Notes: a model not told the origin generated them from the sequence alone. A stretch of DNA of 64,000 nt from Pontiellaceae bacterium B1224 (GCA_029432815.1 JAROBA010000003.1:124001-188000); one strand, 5' to 3'; shown: positions 13,698 through 31,737, counted from the first letter of the stretch. A program made the numbers and translations.

Positions 13698-13988
13698 ATG
13701 ATCAAACATATCGTAATGTGGAAATTTAAAGACGGTGTTGCTGAAGCCGATAAGCAGGAAGTCAAACGCCAGCTGGAAGCGCTCAAGGAGATTGTTCCGG
13801 AAGCCATCGAGATTGAAGTTGGTCTGGATGTCCTTAAAAGCGACCAGTCGCTGGATATGGTACTTAACTCCAAGTTCCAATCATTGGAAGATTTGAAAAC
13901 CTATGCAGCGCATCCCGAACACGTCAAAGTGGGAACATTCCTAAAGACCCTCGTTTGTGAACGTGTTGCCGTTGATTACGAAGTCTGA
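13698..13988 (+). CDS. Dabb (stress-responsive A/B barrel) domain protein
   Basis: 96 residues, a single dimeric alpha-beta barrel. The N-terminus MIKHIVMWKFKDG and the later AAHPEHVKVGTF are typical of the Dabb family, whose function in bacteria is mostly unknown. A good ribosome site (AAGGGAG) lies before the ATG. The stop overlaps the start of the shikimate kinase gene by one base (TGATG), so the two are translationally coupled. Residues FQSLE are encoded by a palindrome copy at 13875-13889. Confidence 0.88.
   Translation: MIKHIVMWKFKDGVAEADKQEVKRQLEALKEIVPEAIEIEVGLDVLKSDQSLDMVLNSKFQSLEDLKTYAAHPEHVKVGTFLKTLVCERVAVDYEV
13875..13889. repeat. Palindrome TTCCAATCATTGGAA
   Basis: In the Dabb gene; F-Q-S-L-E. 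Confidence 0.9.
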
Positions 13989-14485
13989 TGCCTAAGAGCA
14001 ACATAGTGCTGATCGGCATGCCGGCCAGCGGGAAAAGCACGCTCGGCGTTCAGCTGGCGAAGTGGTTGTCGATGGGTTTTATGGATACCGATCTGCTGGT
14101 GCAGGCGCGTGCGGGAATATCCATGCAGGCCTATCAGAATGCCCATGGGCTGGATGCCTACCAAACCCTCGAATGCGATACGGTGAAATCAGTCGTCTGC
14201 GAAAACTGTGTGATCGCTACCGGCGGCAGTGCCGTCTATTGCGAAGGCGCGATGCAGCACTTGAGGTCGATGGCCAGGATTATATTCCTCGACGTGCCCC
14301 TCGATGAAATCAAACGCCGTATCGGCGACACCTCGCAACGCGGCGTCGTCATCAAACCGGGCATGACCCTCGACGATCTTTTCGAAGAACGCCGGCCGCT
14401 TTATCTGCAGCATGCGGATGAGGTCATCGATTGTTTCGGCAAGACACCGGACGAATTGCTGGCCGAGATTCGGTGTTTATCGTAG
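13988..14485 (+). CDS. Shikimate kinase-like protein with displaced 3' end
   Basis: 165 residues. P-loop kinase that would phosphorylate shikimate in aromatic amino-acid synthesis. Walker A GMPASGKST is at residues 10-18 and the DTD substrate motif at 33-35; IATGGSAVY replaces the usual GGG, and ERRPLYLQHAD follows the lid. The C-terminus reads DELLAEIRCLS. A 19-bp copy of its 3' sequence recurs at 17013-17031, followed by codons giving LLAEIREGLK and a stop, which looks like the original end of this gene. The present C-terminus therefore seems to result from an insertion. Function is probably kept because only a few terminal residues changed. Confidence 0.75.
   Translation: MPKSNIVLIGMPASGKSTLGVQLAKWLSMGFMDTDLLVQARAGISMQAYQNAHGLDAYQTLECDTVKSVVCENCVIATGGSAVYCEGAMQHLRSMARIIFLDVPLDEIKRRIGDTSQRGVVIKPGMTLDDLFEERRPLYLQHADEVIDCFGKTPDELLAEIRCLS
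14454..14472. repeat. 19-bp direct repeat, left copy (candidate attachment site)
   Basis: AATTGCTGGCCGAGATTCG at the 3' end of the shikimate kinase gene. A perfect second copy at 17013-17031 bounds a 2.5-kb block with three genes. Confidence 0.8.
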
Positions 14486-14563
14486 ACACGTGCTTCCTGC
14501 GGGGTAATCCGTTCTTCTGCGAAAATACAGTTCAGCCCTTCAATAAATCTCCGATACGAATAA

Positions 14564-15223
14564 CTATCCAAGCGCGTCGCGGAGTGTCAGCGTTTTTATG
14601 GCGGCATCATCCAGTGCTGAATAAAGCTTGAAGAGAAACGTAATCACGTGATTCCAATCTGAAACTTCAATTCCCGAGATCTCGCCATCCGTAATCAGGA
14701 TCGCCTCAGAAAGCTTTATTTCATCGAGAGCTGTTCGTGGAACAGGAGGAGGGGGTTCTATTACCGACTGCGCCTTTGAAACAAAGTCTACAATTTTATG
14801 GCTGCCTGCCTCTGATATAATCCGAAGCGTTTTTTTATGCGAACAATGAGCCAGTTGCTCAATGGTATTGATGCCGAAGTCACTCAGTATAGAGGCCCAT
14901 GAATCACCGACCCCCTGAATGGTTTTACAAGGAAGGCGCGCCAATACGGGGTTTGGTGTATGAAAGGTATCAGAATTATCAATGCCCTTCATATTTTTGC
15001 CGAACCATAGCTCTGCAAGCCAGGGAGTGCCAGCCGGCATGGCATAGCCATTATCTATTTCGTTTACGGTTTTTGATCCGCAACAGATCCGGACGGTCTG
15101 CAATTCCAGCGCCGCAGGCAGTTCATCAATGGACATCATCTGCTGGATTGCAGCAGCCGTTTCGGCGTAGATCAGTTCTGAGAAACCCCGAATGCTATCT
15201 GTAACTGGAATTGAATCGGCCAT
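14564..15223 (-). CDS. Unrecognised protein with helix-hairpin-helix-like segment (third gene of inserted cassette)
   Basis: 219 residues; I do not recognise the family. The N-terminal helix (RGFSELIYAETAAAIQQMM) resembles the starts of the two upstream proteins. The middle has TIQGVGDSWASILSDFGI then NTIEQLAHCSHKKTLRII, which looks like tandem helix-hairpin-helix motifs of the kind that bind DNA backbones or mediate protein contacts. A proline-rich linker (EPPPPVPRT) precedes a C-terminal helical part. No signal peptide or membrane segment. Its ATG overlaps the upstream stop by one base (TAATG), so translation is coupled. Confidence 0.65.
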   Translation of the reverse strand: MADSIPVTDSIRGFSELIYAETAAAIQQMMSIDELPAALELQTVRICCGSKTVNEIDNGYAMPAGTPWLAELWFGKNMKGIDNSDTFHTPNPVLARLPCKTIQGVGDSWASILSDFGINTIEQLAHCSHKKTLRIISEAGSHKIVDFVSKAQSVIEPPPPVPRTALDEIKLSEAILITDGEISGIEVSDWNHVITFLFKLYSALDDAAIKTLTLRDALG

Positions 15224-15987
15224 TAAATTACAGTTCTGAATTCAATTTCAACTTCGCCGAGAATACTGGTGGTCGATGATGAAACTGAGGTGCTGTCTGC
15301 CTGCTTAACTTTAAATTTCACTCCGGGCAGAATTAAACTGCTTCTGTTTGTTCCCAGGCGATTTAACAGTGCGAGTTTACTCGTGTTAAAAGCTTCTATT
15401 TGAGGCAGTCGGGCCATTGAAACTGCTGGGCGAACGACCGTTGGAGTTGGCGGTTGCACCTCCTCTTCCTCCTCGGTTAAATCAAAGGTAACTTTTGAAA
15501 CGATTTTACCGCGGTCCACCACAATTTTAGGAATACCTGAATTCAGCATGTTTTGTAATACTGTTTGCTGTTCAACAGCAAGTCGTTCACGAATGCCGTC
15601 AAAGACCAAATCTGAACCGTCTTCGGTCAGCATAAATGTCCTGCCGCTTTTCGTGAAATGAACCTCTTCTTTCAGTTCAACTCCCAGTGCTTTGAAAAAC
15701 GCAGGCAACTCCATCTGATTATTGGTTGGAGGAAGATATGCGGAACCCTTTTGAGCAGGATTCTCATTTTCTTCCGATCCGAATAATTGAAATGCGGCCT
15801 CCTCAACCTGGTCCGATGTAATATACATCTCGGAGAATTCAGAAATGTTCAGATCGGCCGCCATTTCCAAATCACTGTGTCGGCGTATTTGATCTTCCAA
15901 TGAGGACGAAACCGCTTCGAACGTCTCGGAAATGAGCCCGGCGACAAATTCCGCCAGACCCAAATCGGCTAATTTTTTTTCACTCAC
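15223..15987 (-). CDS. Unrecognised protein, paralogue of the gene upstream (second gene of inserted cassette)
   Basis: 254 residues with no family I can name. It shares three blocks with the product of 15991-16773: an N-terminal amphipathic block (GLAEFVAGLISETFEAVSSS versus GFPEFTASLIGSTFDALISA), a central block (VLQNMLNSGIPKIVVDRGKI versus LIQNVIKQGLLRLVIENGVL), and a C-terminal strand (ILGEVEIEFRTV versus IFGGVKLNFKTD). The pair therefore arose by duplication. The central part is acidic (TEEEEEVQPPTPT). It starts 3 nt after the upstream stop. It looks soluble. Two related subunits would suit a hetero-oligomeric assembly, but that is inference. Confidence 0.65.
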   Translation of the reverse strand: MSEKKLADLGLAEFVAGLISETFEAVSSSLEDQIRRHSDLEMAADLNISEFSEMYITSDQVEEAAFQLFGSEENENPAQKGSAYLPPTNNQMELPAFFKALGVELKEEVHFTKSGRTFMLTEDGSDLVFDGIRERLAVEQQTVLQNMLNSGIPKIVVDRGKIVSKVTFDLTEEEEEVQPPTPTVVRPAVSMARLPQIEAFNTSKLALLNRLGTNRSSLILPGVKFKVKQADSTSVSSSTTSILGEVEIEFRTVI

Positions 15988-15990
15988 GGT

Positions 15991-16773
15991 TTAGTCGCTT
16001 TCCGGAAGAGGCAGGTAGTCCGTTTTAAAGTTCAGCTTAACACCACCGAAAATATTAATATTAGTGCCGGAGGAAGCGTTGGCGCTTGTGCTCGCAGTTT
16101 TTACACTCAGAGCTGTATTTCGGGAAGAACTGATTGAAGGACCGGAAAACAGGGAGCTGAACAGCCCGCTGGCACCTGTTTTTCGTCGAGTCGATGAGGT
16201 TCTGTTATAGCTGGATGTTTTGCGGGTATAAGACCTGCGATCCCACGCGGAGAAATGCAGACGGGTTTCCAGTACGCCATTTTCGATAACCAATCGTAAG
16301 AGTCCCTGTTTAATTACGTTCTGGATGAGGTTGTATTTATTTGCAGCAAGCCTGATGGCAACTGCATCCAGGATGGTATTAAGTTTGGAGGGCGTGAGTT
16401 TTTCTGCCGCCACAGTTGTATCAGCTACTCCGGCTTCAGCTGGCAGTTTAAGTTTATCGGTCAAGCGGGACGCTTCTGCGGCTGTCAATGTTGAATCTTT
16501 GTATACGCGGGTGGTTTCACCTTCGGCATCGGTCTCCAGCGCCGGAAGAACTTCTTCCAGAAAACGAAGAACTTCATCGCCGGTAATGTCGTCTTTTGTT
16601 TCGTTGATGTAGTCCTTGAGGATTTTTGCAGATTGCTCAAGCATTTCGGTGTAGGCCTCCATTTGGCGGATGTTGGCTGAAATGAGCGCATCAAAGGTAG
16701 AACCGATGAGGCTTGCTGTGAATTCCGGGAATCCGATTTCATCTAATCGACTGGCATTACTAATTGCTGACAT
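15991..16773 (-). CDS. Unrecognised protein, paralogue of the next gene (first gene of inserted cassette)
   Basis: 260 residues. The N-terminal half is helical and acidic (IRQMEAYTEMLEQSAKILKD, then DDITGDEVLRFLEEVLP). The C-terminal third is rich in Ser, Thr, Arg and Gly (KTSSYNRTSSTRRKTG, GLFSSLFSGPSIS) before a conserved end NIFGGVKLNFKTDY. It shares three blocks with the following gene product. A strong ribosome site (AAAGGAGAAC) precedes the ATG, and an AT-rich leader with a dyad at 16863-16875 lies upstream, so this is the promoter-proximal gene of the cassette. Visibly lower GC than both flanks. Confidence 0.65.
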   Translation of the reverse strand: MSAISNASRLDEIGFPEFTASLIGSTFDALISANIRQMEAYTEMLEQSAKILKDYINETKDDITGDEVLRFLEEVLPALETDAEGETTRVYKDSTLTAAEASRLTDKLKLPAEAGVADTTVAAEKLTPSKLNTILDAVAIRLAANKYNLIQNVIKQGLLRLVIENGVLETRLHFSAWDRRSYTRKTSSYNRTSSTRRKTGASGLFSSLFSGPSISSSRNTALSVKTASTSANASSGTNINIFGGVKLNFKTDYLPLPESD

Positions 16774-17012
16774 AGTGTTCTCCTTTACTCAGGGTTTCAT
16801 GTGAACATCTATGATGAGGATTTATATAGGGCTCGCAAGAAAAGATATTATGAATTCAATATCATATAAAATATGACACAAAGTGTAGAAGTTAACGCGT
16901 ATTAGTAGAAATATTATTGTTCTTTGATCCATGATATAATGGAGCGAAAATATTAAACATGCAGTGGTTCGAAATCTAAAGAGAATGTTTGCGAGGCATA
17001 TACGAAATGGGC
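16774..17012. promoter_or_regulatory. AT-rich leader of the inserted cassette
   Basis: 239 nt, strongly AT-rich, between the cassette's first gene and the right direct repeat. It carries the palindromic CATATAAAATATG at 16863-16875 (arms CATAT/ATATG), a possible operator or promoter core reading leftward. No open frame is convincing here. Confidence 0.5.
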
Positions 17013-17031
17013 AATTGCTGGCCGAGATTCG
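17013..17031. repeat. 19-bp direct repeat, right copy (candidate attachment site)
   Basis: AATTGCTGGCCGAGATTCG again, here followed by TGAGGGGTTGAAGTAG. Read in the shikimate kinase frame, it gives ...LLAEIREGLK and a stop at 17045-17047, one base from the convergent stop of the transglutaminase gene at 17049. Confidence 0.8.
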
Positions 17032-17048
17032 TGAGGGGTTGAAGTAGT

Positions 17049-17843
17049 TCAGTCGTTTCTATCGATACGTTGTACGTCGATATTTTGTGAAAGAATTGGC
17101 ACGGGGGGACCAAACTGGTTGTAGACGGCAACATCCGCCGCATCGCGGCCATAACCGATGGCGACGTATCCCCCTGTGAGTTGAAGCTGTGTTGCATCAA
17201 AGGTATACCAGCGGTCGGCCACATAGGCTTCGAACCAGGCGTGCAAGGCCATGGGCTGAAGTCCGTGCAGATAGCCCACCACCATGCGTGCGGGAATACT
17301 GAGACTCCGGCATAAGGTAATGCCGAGATGTGCAAAATCCCTGCACACCCCCCATCCCCGGTCATTAATTTCACAGGCAGAAAGATAGCTGTCGCAACCG
17401 AAGGGCTCAAATCGGATCGTATTGCGCATCCAGTTTTCAATGGCTTTCACCTGGTCGTAGCCGGGTAAAAAACCGGCAGTGATTTCCGAGGCCATCTGGC
17501 CAAAGCGTTCCGATTCGCAGTAGCGACTGGGCAGAAGATAACTTAATACCGCGTCCGGCAACGCCGAAACCTCGACAAACGGAGCTCCCGGCGCCTGATC
17601 AATATCGTCATCCGTTTTCACTTCCGCTGACGTGTGCACCGCGAAAGTTCCGGACGGGGCAATCAGCCGTTGGCAGAGATTACCGTAGATATCGGTGAAT
17701 TCAAACGCCGGCACACTGGGTACCATTTTGTATTCCTCGCGAGCGATCCACTGCTGTGCACCGCTGCGCGGGCGCAGCATCAGTACAAACGGAGTGGGCA
17801 CCGAGATATCAAAAACCAGATCGCAATTAGTTTTGAGCCACAT
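17049..17843 (-). CDS. Transglutaminase-like cysteine peptidase, last gene of CP-ATP-grasp cluster
   Basis: About 264 residues from the ATG at 17843, two bases after the upstream stop. The transglutaminase core is intact: cysteine in [15 protein letters not shown], histidine in LHAWFEAYV and aspartate in WYTFDATQ. Members of this family in such clusters are predicted to cleave or transfer peptides made by the accompanying ATP-grasp enzyme. No signal peptide is visible, so it probably acts in the cytoplasm. This short form lacks the extra domains of the 1104-residue protein at 21358-24672. Confidence 0.85.
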
Positions 17844-17845
17844 AG

Positions 17846-18805
17846 CTAAAGCCACCAATATTGTTGCGACTGTTGTTGCTGCTGTTGATTCTGACTCTGC
17901 AGTTGCTGACGATTTTGCTGCGCACGGATAATTTCGCTTTCAGGAATCATGTCGACCTGTGCGTGAACGGTATGCTTGCCTCCGCCGAGCAGAACGCCTT
18001 TGGCGGGGCTGACATCCTGGTAGTCGCGTCCCCAGCCGAGCGTGATATATTGCTCGTCGGCGATCTGATTATTGGTGGGATCGAGTTCGAGCCAGCCCGC
18101 CTGTGGGCAATAGACCGACACCCAGGCGTGCGAGGCATCGGCCCCGGCAAGCCGTGCCTGACCGGGTGGGGGGACGGTTTGGATGTAGCCGCTCATATAG
18201 CGAGCCGCGATGCCCACGCTGCGGAGGCAGGAAACCATTAGATGTGCAAAATCCTGACAGACGCCGCGCCGGTTCTGCAGCACCTCTGTTACCGGGGTGG
18301 CCACGGTGGTGGCCTTGGGATCGAAGGTGAAGTCAGTATCGATACGGGTCATCAGTTCCATGGCAACGGCATGAATGGTCATTCCCGGTCGGCATGAGGG
18401 AAGGGCATAGGTGCGGGCTTCTTCCAGGGGTTTCGCATAGAGCGAGGCGAAGCTGTATTGATAGGCGTCGAGTCCCAGTGGCGTGGTGTCCGTTCGCATG
18501 GTCTGCCGCGCAGACTCCCATGGAATGCCAGATCCGGACGCTGGAGGCCGCGGAAATATTTCGATAATGGATTTGGTCAGCACCTTCATGGCATCGTGTG
18601 GAGACTGGATCATGAAAAACGTGGCCGTGTTTCCAAAATAATCGAGACGTTCGGTCTGTACAACCGGATTCGGTTCGATGTCGATCTCGAAGGTTCTTAC
18701 CTTTTGCCAGGGCAGTTCTCGAGGCTTTAGATGCAGCGTGTTGTAAACAAACGTCACTGGCTGCGTATAGCGGAACGAGGTGAGGTGGCGGAGATGATAA
18801 ATCAC
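17846..18805 (-). CDS. Transglutaminase family protein with N-terminal beta domain
   Basis: About 319 residues. The GTG at 18805 is preferred because it overlaps the upstream stop (GTGA) and gives the family-typical start [12 protein letters not shown]. An N-terminal Bact_transglu_N-like beta region is followed by the core: cysteine in [12 protein letters not shown], histidine in [10 protein letters not shown] and aspartate in WLELDPTNN. The last 25 residues are almost all glutamine with serine ([17 protein letters not shown]), an unusual low-complexity tail. It is coupled to both neighbours and belongs with the fused ATP-grasp/alpha-E gene immediately upstream. Confidence 0.87.
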
Positions 18806-21342
18806 TCGTCCTCTCCGTTCCAACTTTCGGACCCGTAGGCCGATGCCAGCTTGCTGGTGGCATCCACGTGCGCCAGATAGCGATGTGTGATCAGGTTGCT
18901 GAGTTCCTGAACGCTGTCTATGACTTCCGAGAGCAGGGTGTGCAAGGTTGCACGGCGTCCTTTCGTATCAACTTGAGCAAGCTGGTTTAGATCGCAGTTT
19001 TGAATGTGCAATACAAGTTCGTCTGCCAGTGTTTGCTCCGGCAGCCGCCCGCGCCCATGTAGCTCCGACAGCGCGTGCACATGCCGGCTGATCAACACCA
19101 GCTGGTAGGCAATACTACGTGGATTTGAATCGTCGCAGAGCAGCAGGTCGAGCAGCGGCAGAGGAACCACGCGGCTTTGATAGCGTGAGCGGTAGGTCAT
19201 GGCGCTGTTGGCTACTTCAAGAATGGCATCCAGTACAGGAGGCTCGAACGAAGACGGCTTGACCAATAGCTCCTGAAGCAGTTGCGCACTCATGACAGCC
19301 CGTTCCATTCGGAACCCCATATCCATGAACCGCCATCCATAGCCGTGGGTCATGCTTTCTGAACTCAGCCCGGAAAAGGCCGCGAGCGGCATCAGCAACC
19401 GGTCGAGCATATCGAGCGCATCGAACAGATCTCCGCTGCTGGGGGTGGATTGCAATTCGCCTTGCATGCGATCGAGAATATGCCAGGTATCAATGCTGAT
19501 TCGTTCGCGCACAGTGGAGCCGATGCTGCAGGCGCTGATGAGTGCATTATGCAAATTTCCAGGAAGAGCGCGGTCAAAGATCATATTGAAGATCAGAGTT
19601 TTGGTCTCCGCGGCCTGTTTGATCGGATCGGTAATTGGATTTGCACCGGGTTCAGCGGTGGTCATTTCAGAAAGCGTGTGCAAAAGCACTGCTAATTCGG
19701 GTGTCCCGTCGGGTTGGGTTTCTTCGGTGAGCCTCCTGAGTATGGTTCGCAGCAGGCGGGCGTCCATGTCGGCACGTTGGACATAGCGGCCCAGCCAAAA
19801 GAGGTTATCAGCAACGCGACTTGAGAGATTGGCATCGCTGCGCGACGGTTCTATTTCATCTTCAACGGCCGGAAGCAGTGTAACGTGCCTGACCGCTCCG
19901 CGCGCTTTCAGCCAGGCATCTTTGGAGCCGCCGCCGCTTTCCATACTGACGATCGGCGAATCTGCTTGGGGCGACGTACGAACCAGACCGCCCGGCATCA
20001 CTTCCCAACCATCACGGGTGGCGACAATGAAGGCCCGCAGCATGGTATTGCGCGAAACGAGTTGCGAATCCTGCCAGCAGGGGGAGGACGACAGAGAGAT
20101 GCTCTCCTGCGCAATGAACTGTTCCGGTTCTGCTTTGATCCGGTCAGCAAGGGCCGTACGGTCGGCCGGGGAAAGGGACTGAACGAGGACCGCTTTTTCT
20201 CGTTGGTCGGAAAAGGCGCGCTTAATGACCCATCGGTCGAACTGATCCAGCACCTGCTTACACTCTTTTTCCTGGCCGCACCATAGAGTCGGCAGGGTGG
20301 CTAATTTGGGTTCTTCCCCGGTCAGGTTCCGGCAGAGAGTCGGGAAGAACGGCAGCAGGGCGGGGGTTTCGGCCAGCCCGCTACCGAGAGCATTGGCGAT
20401 GGCCACTTCGCCGTCGATGGCGGCTTGAACAAGACCGGGAATTCCCAAAAGGGAATCGCCGGCCAGCTCGAGCGGATCGCAGAGCGAGTCAGCCTGCCGG
20501 CGCAGGATGACATCCACTTTGCGCAGTCCGGACAGGGTTTTTCGAAAGACCTCGCTGCCGCGAACCGTCAGGTCGTTTCCGAGCACGAGCGGGTAGCCGA
20601 GATAGCGGGCAATGTAGGCGTGTTCAAAATAGCTGGAGCTGTGAGAGCCGGGCGTCAGTACCACAATATGCGGACTCAACGTCCGACCGGCGGCCAGTCC
20701 TTCCAGCGTATTACGCAACGTGGCAAAAAAAGAGGCCAACCGTTCCACTCCGCAAACGCGGTACATCGTCGGGAAGGTACGGGACATCATCAATCGGTTT
20801 TCCAGTGCGTAGCCTGCTCCGGGCGGCGTCTGCGAAAGGTCTTTCACCACGCTCCATTTTCCGGAAGGCGTGCGGGCGAGATCGACGGCGTGCAATGTGA
20901 GGTATTGTCCGTTTGGCGGTGTAAACTGGCAGCAGGGCCGCAGGAAATTCGGGTTGGCATACAGCAGTTCACTGGGCAGTACATTGTTTTTCAGAAGCTT
21001 TTGTTCCGAATAGAGGTCCGCCATTGTCAGGTTAAGTACCTTCATACGCTGGATTAACCCCGCCGAAAGCGCTTCCCATTCGTCGGGGTCAATCATCAGC
21101 GGAACCGGATCAAGCATCCATGGATGGCTGCTGCCCTGCTCATCGTCATAGACGTTGTAGGTTACACCGTTTTCTCGGATCATACGCTGCGTACGCAACC
21201 AGCGGGCGTCGATATTCCGCGCTCCGTACTCTTCCAGTTGGCGCAGCATCGGCTGCCAATGGGGGCGAATGGTTCCGTCGGGAGCCAGCATTTCAGGGTA
21301 TGCGCCCGGAAGTGGCCGAAAAGAATCGGTCATTGCACTCAT
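18802..21342 (-). CDS. Fused circularly permuted ATP-grasp and alpha-E protein
   Basis: 846 residues. The first roughly 480 form a CP-ATP-grasp domain (VVLTPGSHSSSYFEHAYIAR, VDVILRRQADSLCDPLEL, IANALGSGLAETPALLPF, WVIKRAFSDQ), an amidoligase-type fold predicted to join amino acids or peptides. From about residue 510 an alpha-E domain begins (RVADNLFWLGRYVQRADMDA) and runs helically to the end. In the other set of this cluster the same two domains are separate genes (25630-27087 and 24677-25630). Start at 21342; the ATG at 21333 is equally possible. Fifteen nt separate it from the upstream stop. Confidence 0.9.
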   Translation of the reverse strand: MSAMTDSFRPLPGAYPEMLAPDGTIRPHWQPMLRQLEEYGARNIDARWLRTQRMIRENGVTYNVYDDEQGSSHPWMLDPVPLMIDPDEWEALSAGLIQRMKVLNLTMADLYSEQKLLKNNVLPSELLYANPNFLRPCCQFTPPNGQYLTLHAVDLARTPSGKWSVVKDLSQTPPGAGYALENRLMMSRTFPTMYRVCGVERLASFFATLRNTLEGLAAGRTLSPHIVVLTPGSHSSSYFEHAYIARYLGYPLVLGNDLTVRGSEVFRKTLSGLRKVDVILRRQADSLCDPLELAGDSLLGIPGLVQAAIDGEVAIANALGSGLAETPALLPFFPTLCRNLTGEEPKLATLPTLWCGQEKECKQVLDQFDRWVIKRAFSDQREKAVLVQSLSPADRTALADRIKAEPEQFIAQESISLSSSPCWQDSQLVSRNTMLRAFIVATRDGWEVMPGGLVRTSPQADSPIVSMESGGGSKDAWLKARGAVRHVTLLPAVEDEIEPSRSDANLSSRVADNLFWLGRYVQRADMDARLLRTILRRLTEETQPDGTPELAVLLHTLSEMTTAEPGANPITDPIKQAAETKTLIFNMIFDRALPGNLHNALISACSIGSTVRERISIDTWHILDRMQGELQSTPSSGDLFDALDMLDRLLMPLAAFSGLSSESMTHGYGWRFMDMGFRMERAVMSAQLLQELLVKPSSFEPPVLDAILEVANSAMTYRSRYQSRVVPLPLLDLLLCDDSNPRSIAYQLVLISRHVHALSELHGRGRLPEQTLADELVLHIQNCDLNQLAQVDTKGRRATLHTLLSEVIDSVQELSNLITHRYLAHVDATSKLASAYGSESWNGEDE

Positions 21343-21357
21343 GGTTGGGCGATTCCC

Positions 21358-24300
21358 CTAAAGGCGTCGAAGGTCGAGCGTGACGGGCATTTCCGCATTA
21401 CGCGGGATGCGGCGCATCTGGAACGGTCCGGGCGTATGGCCCAGCGTCCGGAAGCGCTCGGCGCGTCTGGTTTCTGCTTCAAGTGCGTTGACAGGGAAAA
21501 TCTCATGGCTCCTTCCGCCGGGGTGGCTGACGTAATAGGTACAGCCTCCAACAGCGCGCGCATTCTGCCTGTCTACCAAATCAAATACAAGCGGCGCATG
21601 CACCGGAATCGTAGGGTGCAGGCAGCTCGGCGGCTGCCAGGCACGATAGCGCACGCCGGCCACATAAACGCCGGGCTGATCGGTTGCCGTAAGTGGAACT
21701 TCAATACCGTTCACTGCAATCGCGTGTTTCTGTTCGTACAACCCGGTCACCTTCACCTGCAGGCGTTCGAGCGAGGAATCGACATAACGTGCGGTTCCGC
21801 CGCCGCCAGCCTCTTCGCCAAGTACGAGCCAGGGTTCGATGGCCTGGCGCAGCTCAATCGTAACACCATCAACCGTAACGGTTCCAATGACTGGAAAACG
21901 GAATTCGAAGTGGGTGGCGAACCATTCCTGTCGGAACGGGAAGTTGGCATCGTTGAGCCGATCAATCACGTTGGCAAAATCCTGCTGAACATAGTGTGGC
22001 AGCATAAAACGGTCGTGCAGATGCGTCAGCCAGCGCGTCAGCGGCTCGTCGTAGGGATTTTCCCAGAAGTCGACAATCAAGGCCCGCAGCAGCAGCTGCT
22101 GGGTCAGGCTCATGCGGGCATGCGGCGGCATTTCAAAGCCGCGGAATTCAACGAGTCCGAGCCGGCCGGTGGCACTGTCGGGCGAATACATCTTATCGAT
22201 ACAGAACTCGGCGCGGTGCGTGTTGCCGGTCAGGTCGGTCAGCAAATGCCGGAAAACGCGGTCGACCAGCCACGGCGGAATCGACGGATCTTTCGAGTTT
22301 GGAATCTGACGGAATGCCAGTTCCATTTCATAGGCTGCATCCGGACGGCCTTCATCGACGCGTGGCGCCTGCGAAGTCGGGCCGATAAACAACCCGCTGA
22401 ACAGATAGCTCAGCGAGGGATGGTTCATCCAATAGCCTATCAACGATTTAAGCAGATCGGGCCGGCGCAGGAAGGGGGAGTCGGCCGGCGTTGCTCCGCC
22501 GACCACCACATGGTTACCACCGCCGGTGCCGGTGTGGCGGCCGTCGAGCTGGAACTTATCGGTGCGTAGCAGCCACTCGCGTGCTTCGTCGTAGAGCACA
22601 GAGGTATTGTTAATCATCTCGCGCCAGGAATAGGCGGGCTGAATGTTGACCTCAATCACGCCCGGGTCCGGCGTGACCTTCATGTATTCAATACGCGGAT
22701 CGTGCGGGGGTTCATAGCCTTCAATAAGCACAGGCGTGCCGGTGATTTCGGCGGCGTGTTCGACCGCAGCGACGAGATCGAGATAGTCTTCGATTTTTTC
22801 GCACGGCGGGAAGAACGCATAAAGACGCCCTTCACGACATTCCACGCACATGGCGGTGCGAACCACCCACGGGGCCGATTCTCCTAATTGCGGCAGCTGA
22901 TCGGACGTTTGCTCGTTATCTTCAAAGATACCGGTATCGCGCGGGGCGTCGCCACGATTTTGCGGAACCACAATCGCGCGGCGGCTCGGCAGCGGCGGAT
23001 GGTAGGCCGAAGGATCGGATGTGCCCATCACGGGGCGATCTTCCTTTTTCGCCCAGGGCAGGCTTTCGAGCGGCAGACGGAGTCCGAGCGGGGAGTCGCC
23101 GGGCACGAGATAGAGCTGTTTGCCGCGCAGCATCCAGAGTCCGCTCTGCCAGTTGGAGCCGGTGCGTTCGAGCGGCAGGACATATCCGACGGGAGTATTG
23201 AGCCCGCGGTTGAACACTTTGAGCAGCTGCTCGCGCTCCTGCGGATCATCCAACTTGCTGTCTAGCGGGCTGACGTTGATCGGCAGTTCACGTTCGCGCA
23301 GCGAAAATTTAACCGGGTCTTCGAAAGCGGGGTTGATGTAGTCGCGGTTGACGCCGAGCTGGCGGGTCAGTTCCTCCGTCAGCGCAAGCGCATCTTTGTA
23401 GGTGTGGCCGTACTCCTCGTTTTCACTGCCGATGAGTTTATCGTTGGTCCAGATTGGAAGACCGTCTTTTCGCCAGTATAGGCCGAGTGCCCAGCGGGGG
23501 AGCGGTTCGCCCGGATACCATTTTCCCTGACCGAAATGGAGCAATCCCTTTGGGCCGAAACGAGCACGCAGGCGGCGGATCAGTTTTTCGGAAAGCGGTT
23601 TTTTGGTGGGGCCGACGGCTCCGGTGTTCCACTCTTCACCTTCGAGATCGGTGCCGGAGATGAAGGTTGGTTCGCCGCCCATACTCAGGCGGACATCGCC
23701 TTTAACCAAGCGTTGGTCAACCGCATCGCCGAGTTCGACAACGGCCTGCCATTGGCCATCGGTGTAGGGCTTTGTGACCCGCGGATCTTCGTGAATACGG
23801 GTGACCGACATTTCAACATTAAATTCGGTTTCGCATTCGGTGATGCCACCTTCGAGCGGCGATGCGCCTTTGGCATCGGCCGAGGTGGCGAGCGGAATGT
23901 GGCCTTCACCGCAGAAGAGGCCGCTGGTGGCATCGAGCCCGACCCATCCGGCTCCGGGAAGATAGACCTCGCACCAGGCGTGCAGGTCGCAGACATCTTC
24001 AGTAACACCGGCGGGTGCGTTGGGGTCGACCGGCTTTTCATCGGCAGCGAGCTGGATGGAATAGCCGGACACAAAGCGGGCCGCAAGGCCGAGACGACGG
24101 AATAAATTAACCAGCAACCACGCAAAGTCGCGGCAACTGCCTTTGCCTTCTTTGAGCGTGCGCTCCGGGGTGTAGATGCCCGGGTCCATTCGCAGGGTAT
24201 ATTCGAGGCTGGCGTTCACCTTTTCATTCACCATAGCCAGAAATTCAATGCTACGGATTTCTGTCAGGTCAATCGATTCAAGGAATTCCTGAAAGCGCGG

Positions 24301-24672
24301 GGTCAGCCGTTGTTTTGCAAAATAAGAGCGGAGTTCGCGGCGAAGTTTATAGTTGTATTCAAAGGGGTAGGTCTCGGCATCCTCTTCGAGGAAAAAGTCG
24401 AACGGGTTGATCGGCTTGAGGTCGGCAACCAGATCGACCTCCATACTGAACATGCGCGTCGGTTCATTGACCAACAGGCGGGCAAGATAGTTGTTCTGCG
24501 GGTCCTGCTGCCAGTTGAGGAAGTGGTCTTCCGGTTCGATCTGCAACGAATAGCTGACGATCGGGGTGCGGCAGTGCGGTGTGGGACGAAGACGAATGAT
24601 TTGCGGTCCGAGTTCGGCAAGCCGATCGTAGAAATATTCGGTTTTATGGTGAAGGGCAATGCGAATGGCCAT
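21358..24672 (-). CDS. Large transglutaminase protein with DUF2126 region
   Basis: 1104 residues. It begins with a Bact_transglu_N-like beta domain (MAIRIALHHKTEYFYDRLAE), then the transglutaminase core with Cys180 (GKGSCRDFAWLL), His231 (DLHAWCEVYL) and Asp247 (WVGLDATSG). From about residue 330 the long DUF2126 region follows, including GGEPTFISG, GGGNHVVVGGATPADSPFL and PPHARMSLTQQLLLRAL. Proteins of this architecture accompany CP-ATP-grasp and alpha-E genes and are predicted to work on the peptide product. It carries the only exact TTCCA-n5-TGGAA palindrome (21882-21896) found between 13.9 and 30.3 kb. Four nt separate it from the alpha-E gene. Confidence 0.92.
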   Translation of the reverse strand: MAIRIALHHKTEYFYDRLAELGPQIIRLRPTPHCRTPIVSYSLQIEPEDHFLNWQQDPQNNYLARLLVNEPTRMFSMEVDLVADLKPINPFDFFLEEDAETYPFEYNYKLRRELRSYFAKQRLTPRFQEFLESIDLTEIRSIEFLAMVNEKVNASLEYTLRMDPGIYTPERTLKEGKGSCRDFAWLLVNLFRRLGLAARFVSGYSIQLAADEKPVDPNAPAGVTEDVCDLHAWCEVYLPGAGWVGLDATSGLFCGEGHIPLATSADAKGASPLEGGITECETEFNVEMSVTRIHEDPRVTKPYTDGQWQAVVELGDAVDQRLVKGDVRLSMGGEPTFISGTDLEGEEWNTGAVGPTKKPLSEKLIRRLRARFGPKGLLHFGQGKWYPGEPLPRWALGLYWRKDGLPIWTNDKLIGSENEEYGHTYKDALALTEELTRQLGVNRDYINPAFEDPVKFSLRERELPINVSPLDSKLDDPQEREQLLKVFNRGLNTPVGYVLPLERTGSNWQSGLWMLRGKQLYLVPGDSPLGLRLPLESLPWAKKEDRPVMGTSDPSAYHPPLPSRRAIVVPQNRGDAPRDTGIFEDNEQTSDQLPQLGESAPWVVRTAMCVECREGRLYAFFPPCEKIEDYLDLVAAVEHAAEITGTPVLIEGYEPPHDPRIEYMKVTPDPGVIEVNIQPAYSWREMINNTSVLYDEAREWLLRTDKFQLDGRHTGTGGGNHVVVGGATPADSPFLRRPDLLKSLIGYWMNHPSLSYLFSGLFIGPTSQAPRVDEGRPDAAYEMELAFRQIPNSKDPSIPPWLVDRVFRHLLTDLTGNTHRAEFCIDKMYSPDSATGRLGLVEFRGFEMPPHARMSLTQQLLLRALIVDFWENPYDEPLTRWLTHLHDRFMLPHYVQQDFANVIDRLNDANFPFRQEWFATHFEFRFPVIGTVTVDGVTIELRQAIEPWLVLGEEAGGGGTARYVDSSLERLQVKVTGLYEQKHAIAVNGIEVPLTATDQPGVYVAGVRYRAWQPPSCLHPTIPVHAPLVFDLVDRQNARAVGGCTYYVSHPGGRSHEIFPVNALEAETRRAERFRTLGHTPGPFQMRRIPRNAEMPVTLDLRRL
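21882..21896. repeat. Palindrome TTCCAATGACTGGAA
   Basis: In the DUF2126 gene; P-V-I-G. The only exact copy between 13.9 and 30.3 kb. Confidence 0.9.
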
Positions 24673-24676
24673 GAGG

Positions 24677-25630
24677 TCATGCTCCAGTAGAAAGTGCGGG
24701 GTCGGGATTAAAATGATCGAAGATGGCTGAGTTGATATTATTCATCGCGAGCTGCAGGTCCTCGATGAATTCATTCAACCCTGTTTCTATAATGTCGGAA
24801 CCGCTCAGAGACTCAAGTTTTTTACAGAGCGATGCCAGCTGTTTATGGGGTTCTCCCTGCTCACCATCGGTTATCAGGTTGAGGCTCTGCTGTGCGGACT
24901 GGAGGCAGAACAGGATTGCTCGGGGGAACGCCGGGTTGAGTACGATCATGTGGATAACATTGTCCCGCTGGATCAGTCCGTGCGTACGATGGTAGGCCTC
25001 GCGGGCGTCGAGCGAGAGCAGCAGGGCCAGCCATTGCATATCGTCGATGGACGTTTCCAGATCGGTGATCTGCGGATGGATGTAGAAATATTTAACGTGG
25101 AGCAGGCGCGAGGTCTTGTCGGCCCGTTCCATGAATTCCCCCAGTCGCCAGAAATGGTAGCCACGACCGCGTTCAATGATTTCGGAAAACATACCGGAAA
25201 TCATCATGCATTCCCGCTTAACCTCGCGGCAGAGCTCGAGGATCTGGCTATGGAAAAAATCTTTTCGACGGGCGGCATCGGGAACCAGTTTCCCCAGCGC
25301 ATTGATGGCTTCGAAAAGCTCGGCCGGCATATTTTCGCGCAGTCCCATTGCATTTTCCCGTGCGGCCCGCAGGCAGCTTGCAATGGAGTTGATATATTCC
25401 GGGTTGAACATCAGGAAATGCATCACATTCTCTGCGGTCGGTTCACCGCACCGCGCTTCAAAAATCTTGATGTCACCGGTAATTTCAATCAGCGGGCGCC
25501 ATTGCTCCTGTCCTCCTTGCTGGAGGTCGAGGTTCAGGTGGTAACTCACTTCGAGGAAGCGGGCGGTATTGGCCGCGCGTTCAATATAGCGGCTCATCCA
25601 CATGATCTGGTCTGCAACACGGCTTAACAT
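24677..25630 (-). CDS. Alpha-E domain protein
   Basis: 317 residues, almost wholly helical. The start MLSRVADQIMWMSRYIERAANTARFLEV is diagnostic of the alpha-E (DUF403) family, which always travels with CP-ATP-grasp proteins and probably acts as their partner or product-binding subunit. Later ERADKTSRLLHVKYFYIHP repeats the helical signature. The ATG overlaps the stop of the upstream CP-ATP-grasp gene (TAATG). The biochemical role of the family is not settled. Confidence 0.9.
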   Translation of the reverse strand: MLSRVADQIMWMSRYIERAANTARFLEVSYHLNLDLQQGGQEQWRPLIEITGDIKIFEARCGEPTAENVMHFLMFNPEYINSIASCLRAARENAMGLRENMPAELFEAINALGKLVPDAARRKDFFHSQILELCREVKRECMMISGMFSEIIERGRGYHFWRLGEFMERADKTSRLLHVKYFYIHPQITDLETSIDDMQWLALLLSLDAREAYHRTHGLIQRDNVIHMIVLNPAFPRAILFCLQSAQQSLNLITDGEQGEPHKQLASLCKKLESLSGSDIIETGLNEFIEDLQLAMNNINSAIFDHFNPDPALSTGA

Positions 25631-27087
25631 TAGATTTTCTCCAGTTCGTGTGAACGATCAACGACCCAGGTGTCTTTCGTGCCGCCGCCCTGCGACGAGT
25701 TGACCACCAGAGATCCTTTTTTCAGTGCGACACGCGTCAGGCCGCCGGGCAGCACATACGAATCGTCTCCACTATGCAGAATGTAGGGGCGCAGATCGAG
25801 ATGGCGGCCCTCAAAGTGACTGTCCACCATAACCGGCGCGCGTGAGAGCGACAGGGTGGGCTGCGAAATATAGTTTCTTGGATTTGCGCGCAGTACCTTA
25901 GCAAACTCCTCCCGTTCTTTTTTGGTGGATGCCGGGCCGATCAGCATGCCGTAGCCTCCGGATTCACTGGCGGGTTTAACCACCAGTTTATCAAGGTTGT
26001 CGAGCGTGTACTCCAAGGCTTCTTCGTCGATGCAGAGATGGGTCGGCACATTGGGTAGCAGGGGCTCTTCACCGAGATAATATTTAATCATGTCCGGCAC
26101 AAAGGCGTAGACCACCTTATCGTCGGCCACGCCGGTTCCCGGAGCATTGGCGAGCGTGAGGTGCCCGTCGCGGAAGGCCTTCATCATACCCTTGCAACCC
26201 AGGGTGGAGTCGGCCCGGAACACTTCGGGATCCAGAAATTCGTCGTCGACCCGGCGGTAGATCACATCGATGCGCTGCAGTCCGTCAACGGTCCGTGCGC
26301 AGACATATTTTCCGTCGTAGACCAGATCGCGGCCTTCCACGAGCTGGGCCCCCATTTGGCGGGCCAGGAAGGTGTGTTCAAAATAAGCCGAGTTGTAGAC
26401 GCCCGGCGTGAGCACCGCCACGTTCGGCTTTTCAATGCCCTCCGGCGCGAGCTTGTGCAGCATTTTCATGAATTGAATCGGATAGTCGACCACCCGCCGT
26501 ACGCCGCTCTTGTGGAAGACTTCGGGGAAGTTACGTTTCATCAGCGTGCGGTCGAGCAAAACATAGGAAACGCCCGATGGTACGCGCAGGTTGTCTTCGA
26601 GCACAAAGAAGGTGCCGTTTTCATCGCGGACGAGATCAGTTCCGGTCACATGGGCCCAGACGCCGCCGGGCGGGTTCAGATCCTGACACTGCGGGAGATA
26701 GCCTTTGGAGGAGGTGAATAACCATTCGGGTACAACGCCATCCTTGATGATTTTGCGCTTGTGGTAGATGTCGTCTATGAAATGATTAACGGCCTTGATC
26801 CGTTGCTTCAATCCGGCTTCAACCGGGTCCCACTCCTGCCCGTCAATAATACGCGGGACAATGTCGAACGGGATGGCGCGTTCGGTGCCTTCGTTCGACC
26901 CATAGACATTAAACGTAATGCCCATGCTCAGCATGGCGCGTTCGCTGGCTTCCTGACGCCGGCGCAGATCGCCCTTCGGCAGTTTTTCGATTGCTTCCAC
27001 AAGCAACCGCGCGCAGTCACGCGCCTGTCCCTGGTTATCGAATAGCTCATCGAAAAACCCGCCGGTATCATATCCCTCAAAAGTCAT
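25630..27087 (-). CDS. Circularly permuted ATP-grasp protein, first gene of cluster
   Basis: 485 residues. CP-ATP-grasp family (DUF404/DUF407): VAVLTPGVYNSAYFEHTFLA, VDVIYRR-like RIDVIYRRVDDEFLDPE, LANAPGTGVADDKVVYAF, the nucleotide-binding LVVKPASESGGYGML and the C-terminal VNSSQGGGTKDTW are all present. Predicted amidoligase that makes a peptide or peptide tag at ATP cost. Ribosome site AGAGGATG precedes the ATG. It heads a six-gene run on the minus strand in which every junction overlaps or is at most 15 nt, so one transcript from the AT-rich 27088-27324 region is likely. Confidence 0.92.
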   Translation of the reverse strand: MTFEGYDTGGFFDELFDNQGQARDCARLLVEAIEKLPKGDLRRRQEASERAMLSMGITFNVYGSNEGTERAIPFDIVPRIIDGQEWDPVEAGLKQRIKAVNHFIDDIYHKRKIIKDGVVPEWLFTSSKGYLPQCQDLNPPGGVWAHVTGTDLVRDENGTFFVLEDNLRVPSGVSYVLLDRTLMKRNFPEVFHKSGVRRVVDYPIQFMKMLHKLAPEGIEKPNVAVLTPGVYNSAYFEHTFLARQMGAQLVEGRDLVYDGKYVCARTVDGLQRIDVIYRRVDDEFLDPEVFRADSTLGCKGMMKAFRDGHLTLANAPGTGVADDKVVYAFVPDMIKYYLGEEPLLPNVPTHLCIDEEALEYTLDNLDKLVVKPASESGGYGMLIGPASTKKEREEFAKVLRANPRNYISQPTLSLSRAPVMVDSHFEGRHLDLRPYILHSGDDSYVLPGGLTRVALKKGSLVVNSSQGGGTKDTWVVDRSHELEKI

Positions 27088-30270: not shown

Positions 30271-31260
30271 TTATCCTGCAAAAATGCAGTTTGCGCCCTT
30301 GGTAAATCCGCGCTCTTTTAAAAAGGTGTGGATGTTTCGACGGGCTCCGCGGTTTCCAACCATTGGAAGAATGAAGCAGGAAGCGGGATCAGGTATTTTC
30401 GAATGATGGATGACGGGTGTTCCGCAATTCAGGGTGCGGGGTTTGAGGTCGATGTAGTGCGTAATGCGTAATCCGTATTGCTCCAGAACGGAGGCTCTTT
30501 TTCTTGTCACTCTGCCCGCGCCCCAGACGATGACGTCGGGGTGGTGGGGGTTGTTTTTTTTCAGCCATTGGAAAAGATAGCGGGCTTTGGTTTCGTAGAA
30601 GGCATCGATGGAATAGCGGGTGTCGGTGCGGGACAGGCGAGTGGGTGGATCGTTCCAGGTGATGAGTTCCTGATCCACTTTGCCGCACTGCACGCCGTGG
30701 CCCATCCATCGAAGCCAGAGTTCGTAGTCTTCCGGGAACGGGCCGTCGCGGTAGGCTCCGTACTTTTCGGGAAGTTCCCGGCGAAACATCACGGAGGGGT
30801 GGGCAAAGGGCGATTCGACAAACTGGTTGAGGGCAATCTCGTCCGGTTCAATCAGCGAATTGATCCAATCCACGTAGGCCGCATAACCCGCTTGCTTTCC
30901 GCGGTCGCCACCGAATTCAACCCGACTGCCGACCATTCCAAGGGTTGGAAACTTTTCGAGATAGGCTACTTGCTGTTCAATGCGTTCGGGATGGCAGAGG
31001 TCGTCGGCATCCATGCGGGCAATGTAATCGCCGCTGACGGCCGCCAGCCCGTCGTTCAGCGCCGGAACAATACCGCGGTGGGGGCGGTCGATCAGACGAA
31101 TATCTTTCCGGGGGCGCAGGATATCCAAGGTTCCGTCGGTGGACCCATCGTTCACCACAATGATTTCCAAGGATTGGAACTGTTGCGCCCGCAGGCTTTC
31201 CAGGGTTTGGAAAATCGTGGATTCGGCATTATAGGCCGGCATGACTACGGATACTTTCAT
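30271..31260 (-). CDS. Family 2 glycosyltransferase
   Basis: About 329 residues. The start MKVSVVMPAYNAESTIFQTL is typical of GT-A glycosyltransferases, followed by VNDGSTDGT, the nucleotide-sugar and metal motif ARMDADDLCHPER, and a catalytic-type DYELWLRW region. It would add a sugar to a lipid- or cell-surface glycan using a nucleotide sugar. After residue 230 an extra C-terminal domain (HPDVIVWGAGRVTRKRASVL) looks like a Rossmann segment. The ATG at 31260 is preferred to one 12 nt earlier. Four exact palindromes lie in the gene. Confidence 0.88.
   Translation of the reverse strand: MKVSVVMPAYNAESTIFQTLESLRAQQFQSLEIIVVNDGSTDGTLDILRPRKDIRLIDRPHRGIVPALNDGLAAVSGDYIARMDADDLCHPERIEQQVAYLEKFPTLGMVGSRVEFGGDRGKQAGYAAYVDWINSLIEPDEIALNQFVESPFAHPSVMFRRELPEKYGAYRDGPFPEDYELWLRWMGHGVQCGKVDQELITWNDPPTRLSRTDTRYSIDAFYETKARYLFQWLKKNNPHHPDVIVWGAGRVTRKRASVLEQYGLRITHYIDLKPRTLNCGTPVIHHSKIPDPASCFILPMVGNRGARRNIHTFLKERGFTKGANCIFAG
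30354..30368. repeat. Palindrome TTCCAACCATTGGAA
   Basis: In the glycosyltransferase gene; P-M-V-G. Confidence 0.9.
30936..30950. repeat. Palindrome TTCCAAGGGTTGGAA
   Basis: In the glycosyltransferase gene; P-T-L-G. Confidence 0.9.
31165..31179. repeat. Palindrome TTCCAAGGATTGGAA
   Basis: In the glycosyltransferase gene; F-Q-S-L-E. Confidence 0.9.
31198..31212. repeat. Palindrome TTCCAGGGTTTGGAA
   Basis: In the glycosyltransferase gene; F-Q-T-L-E, 18 nt from the preceding copy. Confidence 0.9.
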
Positions 31261-31737
31261 GGATATAACCATCCGGAAGCGTTGTCGTGTACTTTTTGGG
31301 ACATGAGCCCATCGTCGTAAATATCTGTGTTCATCGCTCTGTACAGTATGTAGATCCTGATTTTATTGTCAAATCCGCCTCTTTTACAGCTTGTGGTTCA
31401 ATTTTTAATGACCACAACATATAGGTATTTTATTTTCGGTTTGTTTCGAATGGGGACCTCGGTGCCGGAAGCCGTTTCGGGTAGGGTAATAGATGAGTCT
31501 ACAGCGGATGCTGTTTAATTAAATTTTCGTAAATCAGCTTCAGAAAGGGTCTTAAATCAGGAGTGTTGATCAGGGGAATATGATTTTTTCATTTTTTCCT
31601 TCAACTTGCGGATCACGCTCTATATTGTGCGCATGTTTTCGGGAGACTACTATATGTAGTACACTATATGTACTGCGAACAACACGCGCTCTCCGCCCAA
31701 AAACCGCAATAAACGCTTAAGATGAAAGGGGCCAATT
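31261..31737. other. Intergenic region upstream of nrdJ
   Basis: About 477 nt with no open frame of note. It is AT-rich between 31360 and 31640 and ends with two NrdR-like boxes (31646-31674) about 65 nt before the nrdJ start. I looked for a cobalamin riboswitch and saw no convincing one. Confidence 0.5.
31646..31674. promoter_or_regulatory. Two tandem NrdR-box-like sites
   Basis: The 10-mer ACTATATGTA occurs at 31649-31658 and again at 31663-31672, within near-palindromes ACTACTATATGTAGT and ACACTATATGTACT. This matches the general NrdR-box form (ACACWATATWTTGTGT-like) and lies just upstream of a ribonucleotide reductase gene, the usual NrdR target. The 14-bp spacing is closer than in the classical arrangement, so the assignment is moderate. 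Confidence 0.55.

Follow-up and report, generated by a model that had tools for sequence, protein, structure and literature searches.

A three-gene operon between a shikimate kinase gene and a transglutaminase-like gene of Pontiellaceae bacterium B1224, and the probable origin of its 19-bp direct repeat from two kinase tails

Some integrative elements, such as the islands mobilised by tyrosine recombinases, insert at the 3′-ends of genes, where they leave a short perfect direct repeat and keep the frame of the gene. A locus of this appearance is found in a stretch of 64,000 nucleotides from Pontiellaceae bacterium B1224 (GCA_029432815.1 JAROBA010000003.1:124001-188000; hereafter the window), where a three-gene operon, A-B-C, is located between two copies of a 19-bp sequence, the left one within the end of a shikimate-kinase-family gene and the right one next to the transglutaminase-like gene TG1 (Table 1). 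In homology-facilitated illegitimate recombination (HFIR), which is documented for several bacteria, namely Streptococcus pneumoniae, Acinetobacter baylyi, Pseudomonas stutzeri, and Escherichia coli (PMC3240628), DNA is joined through homologous sequence on one side and illegitimately on the other. For the effector-immunity modules of the type VI secretion system (T6SS) of Vibrio cholerae and for Rhs loci, a sequential displacement has been proposed in which orphan 3′-ends are left behind (PMC5361080). Moreover, defence hotspots between conserved genes have been described (e.g., PMC10250203, PMC10121019). An earlier note on this DNA had interpreted the block as an integrative element that duplicated its site and supplied a replacement end for the kinase gene. 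Here, we propose with moderate confidence that the 19-bp repeat did not arise by duplication of a target site but is the stretch where two kinase tails, ending in CLS and EGLK, respectively, agree, and that donor DNA was imported by recombination in the kinase gene and joined illegitimately on the right.

As the earlier note had stated, the 19-mer AATTGCTGGCCGAGATTCG is exact in both copies, with approximately 0.02 matches expected by chance, and no further site was found within the window even when three mismatches were allowed. The right copy, read in the same frame as the kinase gene, likewise continues as described before into LLAEIREGLK and a TAG stop codon (17045-17047), which is one base off the stop codon of the convergent TG1 gene (complement TCA, 17049-17051). 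The kinase orthologues of the genus (64-87% identity) have the sequence ...ELLxEIR in common, followed by free variation (IRALV, IRASA, IRELA, IRGVL, IRSLL, IRCLS). Since the tails vary after EIR, the CLS end need not derive from an element, and, judged by sequence, CLS and EGLK are two of the naturally variable kinase tails. The repeat extends from the edge of the foreign DNA (17013) to the point where the two tails diverge. As an observation on the side, the contigs of the relatives G023 (L037), G013 (L043), and G011 (L055) end within some 60 bp after the kinase tail, which may be caused by strain-to-strain variation at this junction.

Approximately 30-70 bases past the kinase stop codon, the opposite strand encodes RRFIEGLNCIFAE. 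In six congeners (G002, G006, G007, G008, G009, and G026), the kinase gene and a GT2 glycosyltransferase gene downstream of it converge, and the GT2 product ends in ...RGFTEGVNCIFAA or a similar sequence. The alignment of RRFIEGLNCIFAE with GT2 C-termini yielded a score of 53, as compared to a maximum of 35 among 2504 equally long control windows, and the DNA agrees with the kinase-GT2 junction of G002 at 27 of 31 bases. In a search of the whole window with a GT2 hidden Markov model (HMM), the remnant ranked second after the intact GT2 gene, with a modest E value of 0.035. Because a GT2 3′-end lies beside the left repeat, the left junction would consist of kinase-locus DNA and not of element DNA. 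Thus, the DNA to the right of the left repeat can be read as stemming from a kinase-GT2 junction, and the DNA to the right of the right repeat as a kinase-TG1 junction. The stop codon of gene C (14564) marks the start of clearly foreign DNA and lies about 90 bp to the right of the left boundary drawn in the earlier note. That note was right in regarding the block as foreign and as inserted at the kinase 3′-end, but its left boundary is not supported.

In the congener G016, the kinase gene (87% identical) abuts TG1 with overlapping stop codons and represents the empty site; a kinase gene standing uninterrupted next to the transglutaminase gene in close relatives is what the earlier note had proposed to look for. 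In addition, G016, G018, G024, G027, and the window share the order kinase - TG1/TG2 - CP - (TG3) - alpha-E - CP2 - GT2 - ribonucleotide-reductase-like gene, except that three of them lack TG1 and that no TG3 was detected in one. The kinase-TG1 junction of G016 together with the kept gene order indicates that DNA was inserted here in the genome of the window. This empty site does not separate the integration of an element from recombination.

Taken together, these results suggest the following course of events. Donor DNA comprising the 3′-part of a kinase gene, the 3′-remnant of GT2, and A-B-C would have entered, from a related strain or species, a recipient with the kinase-TG1 order of G016, and would have recombined homologously within the kinase gene. 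Its right end would then have been attached by an illegitimate joint, 35 bp short of the end of the recipient kinase gene, leaving the last ten codons and the stop codon of the recipient beside TG1; these codons are observed in the sequence, and the manner of their joining is presumed. The final order is seen in the window, with the intact kinase gene, the GT2 remnant, A-B-C reading leftward, the kinase-tail fragment, and TG1. If the repeat represents two kinase tails, a site-specific recombinase is unnecessary.

This course resembles HFIR in that one side would have been joined via homologous DNA (the kinase gene) and the other illegitimately, with foreign DNA in between and without a recombinase, and the recipient has kept part of its own gene end. 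The left junction, which lies in the kinase gene and has a flank of the kinase-GT2 type, would fit the homologous side of such an event. Unlike in the HFIR studies, only the end product is seen, in one genome, whereas neither the crossover nor the donor was observed, and the microhomology of 3-10 bp that is often found in HFIR is not visible at the joint. Reminiscent of the T6SS clusters of V. cholerae and of Rhs loci, a module would have entered beside a conserved gene, and the old gene end would have been pushed downstream as an orphan 3′-remnant. In contrast to these loci, however, the anchor is a kinase gene present throughout the genus, and the module contains no known toxin or immunity gene.

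Several observations weigh against recombination with a donor strain. We did not find a genome with the presumed donor order kinase - GT2 remnant - operon. Moreover, the identity along the kinase gene does not reveal a clear recombination breakpoint, and the homologous crossover is therefore not demonstrated, although the missing breakpoint is expected, because the nearest relative is only about 79% identical at the DNA level. The joint at 17012/17013 is abrupt, without visible microhomology. The GT2 remnant spans only about 13 codons and lacks a stop codon, and the E value given above was obtained by the HMM alone over the whole window. Finally, a second kinase gene may formerly have been present beside TG1.

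In the latter case, an ancestor would have carried one kinase gene (CLS) followed by GT2 and another (EGLK) followed by TG1, the operon would have replaced the DNA from within GT2 to within the second kinase gene, and the repeat would reflect paralogy in one genome. Such a duplication predicts the same sequence and explains the repeat without recombination between strains; G014 harbours two kinase orthologues (78% and 73% identity to the window kinase), and both breakpoints are located inside gene 3′-ends. However, no relative was seen in which a kinase-GT2 pair adjoins a kinase-TG1 pair, and an extra copy of GT2 would be needed as well, since the intact GT2 gene of the window occupies its customary distant place. 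We regard the duplication as rather unlikely. We attach far less weight still to an artefact, that is, a chance resemblance of a right copy not derived from a kinase gene, or a mis-join of contigs at the repeat. The draft assembly comprises 204 contigs, and the contigs of three relatives stop close to the kinase end, as mentioned above. Nevertheless, chance can hardly account for 19 identical in-frame bases followed by an open tail and a stop codon at the position of a G016-type kinase-TG1 junction, whereas a mis-join is at odds with flanks that both fit the native synteny and with a repeat whose 19 bp probably fall short of the overlaps typical of assemblies.

The remaining explanation is close to that of the earlier note, namely the site-specific integration of a mobile element at the kinase 3′-end, by which a core of 19 bp was duplicated and the kinase received its CLS end; the element would have acquired the GT2 remnant in an earlier host with a kinase-GT2 junction. 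As in tyrosine-recombinase islands, the insertion lies at the 3′-end of a gene, the kinase frame being intact and its end replaced, the exact 19-bp repeat is present at both edges, and G016 provides the empty site. In contrast to these islands, the block contains no integrase or other recombinase gene, and its left edge would be kinase-locus DNA, in that the GT2-derived sequence separates the left copy of the repeat from the foreign DNA. Furthermore, at four sites of the operon in other genomes (L004, L005, L077, and L079, see below), no flanking direct repeat of at least 12 bp was found, one flank of L079 comprising only 607 bp. Likewise, a copy of the kinase tail was sought downstream in the loci of 14 relatives and was found in none of them, including an island of G004 inserted at the same junction. 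Together with the naturally variable tails, these findings speak against site duplication and a supplied replacement end, and we consider a mobile element without a recombinase improbable.

Table 1. Features of the kinase-TG1 locus and of the intact GT2 gene in the window
Feature	Position	Strand	Remarks
Shikimate-kinase-family gene	13988..14485	+	165 aa, intact, end ...DELLAEIRCLS*; open reading frame and Pfam SKI, E 3e-29
Left copy of 19-bp repeat	14454..14472	+	codes for ELLAEIR within the kinase
GT2 glycosyltransferase 3′-end remnant, degenerate	14515..14553	-	RRFIEGLNCIFAE, cf. RGFTEGVNCIFAA; convergent to kinase gene; stop codon lost
Gene C	14564..15223	-	219 aa; N-terminal helix/strand part and helix-hairpin-helix region (residues ~95-140); last of operon
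Gene B	15223..15987	-	254 aa; start codon GTG; distant paralogue of A; stop shares one base with the start of C
Gene A	15991..16773	-	260 aa; first of operon; conserved N-terminus EFTAxLIxxTFDAL..ANxRQMEAY, C-terminus NIFGGVKLNFKTDY
AT-rich non-coding region upstream of operon	16774..17012		presumably promoter
Right copy of 19-bp repeat	17013..17031	+	start of retained kinase-tail fragment; right edge of foreign DNA
Rest of kinase-tail fragment (...EGLK*)	17032..17047	+	one base from TG1 stop; counterpart of G016 kinase-TG1 junction
TG1, transglutaminase-like gene	17049..17858	-	native right neighbour; Pfam Transglut_core, E 6.2e-21; synteny
Intact GT2 glycosyltransferase	30271..31272	-	usual place before ribonucleotide-reductase-like gene; represents the family from which the 14515-14553 remnant stems

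The cluster of TG and CP genes to the right of the insertion (17049-27087) is a mosaic. From TG2 to CP2, the window is much closer to G008 (84-96%) than to G016 (58-60% for TG2 and CP; cf. L093, L101). The kinase and GT2 genes of the window are closer to G016, and GT2 has moved in G008. This pattern suggests frequent recombination between species at the locus.

The three genes of the operon are probably transcribed as a single unit, because A and B are separated by only 3 bp and B overlaps C by one base. Protein B is related to A (22% identity, E 3e-8). In blastn searches, the region upstream of the operon (16774-17012) resembled neither the relatives nor any other part of the window. As noted before, the block is lower in GC, with 46.8% for positions 14564-16773 as compared to 52.4% for the window. 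In addition, the earlier note had pointed to the lack of a palindrome. The 15-bp palindrome TTCCAANNNTTGGAA, counted with up to one mismatch, occurs at 43 sites in the window versus 0.27 expected, and there is none within the 8 kb from 13890 to 21881. Sites of the TTCCAANNNTTGGAA type are therefore indeed absent from the block; however, they are likewise absent from the native genes TG1, TG2, and CP, and we rejected their absence as a sign of foreign DNA.

None of the proteins A, B, and C significantly matches a curated family in Pfam, NCBIfam, PADLOC, or PHROGs, including integrases, transposases, and resolvases, in line with the earlier note, which had seen no integrase or transposase inside the block. 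Profile searches and Foldseek indicate that the helix-hairpin-helix region of C resembles that of Y-family DNA polymerases and DNA polymerase IV, and the same marginal match was the only one obtained in sequence searches of the PDB. Matches to PADLOC were marginal as well (best E 0.004), and no described defence family was recognised among the three proteins. The AlphaFold models are weak, with a predicted local distance difference test (pLDDT) score of 68 for C and 61 for A, and Foldseek with the model of C returned mostly the polymerase helix-hairpin-helix region; we did not read a function from these models. A homology of C to a 261-aa protein of larger S8/amidase operons, an idea obtained by eye, was not confirmed by profile comparison (probability 1%).

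Within the phylum, the operon is present in one of the 289 genomes searched, namely this one, and it was not found in any of the 27 congeners searched. The order A-B-C and its tight spacing are conserved at unrelated sites in metagenome-assembled genomes (MAGs) of Desulfobulbus (L004) and Chlorobium (L005) as well as in G585 (L077) and G579 (L079). Protein A shares 55% identity with its counterpart in the Desulfobulbus MAG and 45% with that in the Chlorobium MAG, and A-like proteins are encoded by 8 of 258 genomes of the class to which the Desulfobulbus MAG belongs. No relative of A was found in the viral contigs and phage records searched. Because the operon is found only here in the phylum and genus, while its order recurs in the Desulfobulbus and Chlorobium MAGs, it is, on the strength of these comparisons, to be considered foreign to this genome.

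In the window, L004, and L005, the compact operon is found on its own. In L077 (2114-10246), a caspase-domain gene (E 7e-32) and a gene for a 954-aa protein with peptidoglycan-binding, GH19-like (chitinase-like), and papain-like parts stand before the operon, and a gene for a 604-aa protein of the papain family comes after it. Moreover, longer proteins with an A-like region are encoded in operons together with a subtilase (S8 peptidase) and an amidase in L081-L083, which come from relatives of the Desulfobulbus MAG, and in L062, a Burkholderia plasmid, and on a plasmid of the cyanobacterium Tolypothrix (L056) an A-like region is encoded beside an S8 peptidase (subtilase) and a peptidoglycan-binding protein. 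These genes are part of a large uncharacterised operon, comprising a subtilase, an A-like protein, an amidase or peptidoglycan-binding protein, and several unannotated genes, which we observed in L081, L082, L083, and L056, and partly in L062, a Burkholderia megaplasmid. A link to Trypco2, based on a single weak match of a neighbouring protein (E 0.0098), was dropped as evidence.

Defence-type genes are found after the kinase gene or inside TG1 in some relatives. In G004, the interval between the kinase gene and TG1 is occupied by an island of 11 kb (L097:1134-12214) encoding a type I restriction-modification system and a RhuM/Fic protein. In G025 (L041:1-3200), type I specificity and AbiEi-type genes come after the kinase gene, and in G021 (L095:14441-18700) TG1 is interrupted by a gene for a protein matching the PADLOC candidate PDC-M49A (E 5e-210). 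By guilt by association in a few genomes, the kinase-TG1 interval thus looks like a defence hotspot. With the G004 island, the G025 genes, and the G021 candidate, it is similar to the hotspots cited above; it differs from them in the small number of genomes and in that A-B-C is not a recognised defence system.

The protease neighbours and the defence genes at the locus make a role in conflict or defence the leading guess for A-B-C, again by association and with low confidence. It is conceivable, though doubtful, that the three proteins of A-B-C form an undescribed, horizontally moving module of a conflict system linked to a protease (caspase, papain, or subtilase), and that this module was captured at the kinase-transglutaminase defence hotspot. 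In such a system, the three proteins might perhaps serve as a non-enzymatic adaptor module, a suggestion that is equally tentative.

Our results suggest that a textbook-like footprint of integration, with perfect repeats, a gene 3′-end, and an empty site, can arise from ordinary recombination between two alleles, the origin of which is recognisable only through the remnant of a neighbouring gene in the flank. The insertion itself would accordingly be an ordinary event with an instructive footprint, whereas the operon is the part worth following. It is common to at least three phyla and uncharacterised, and its relatives can adjoin genes for caspases and other proteases, which makes it a candidate conflict module and renders both the module and its insertion locus amenable to testing.

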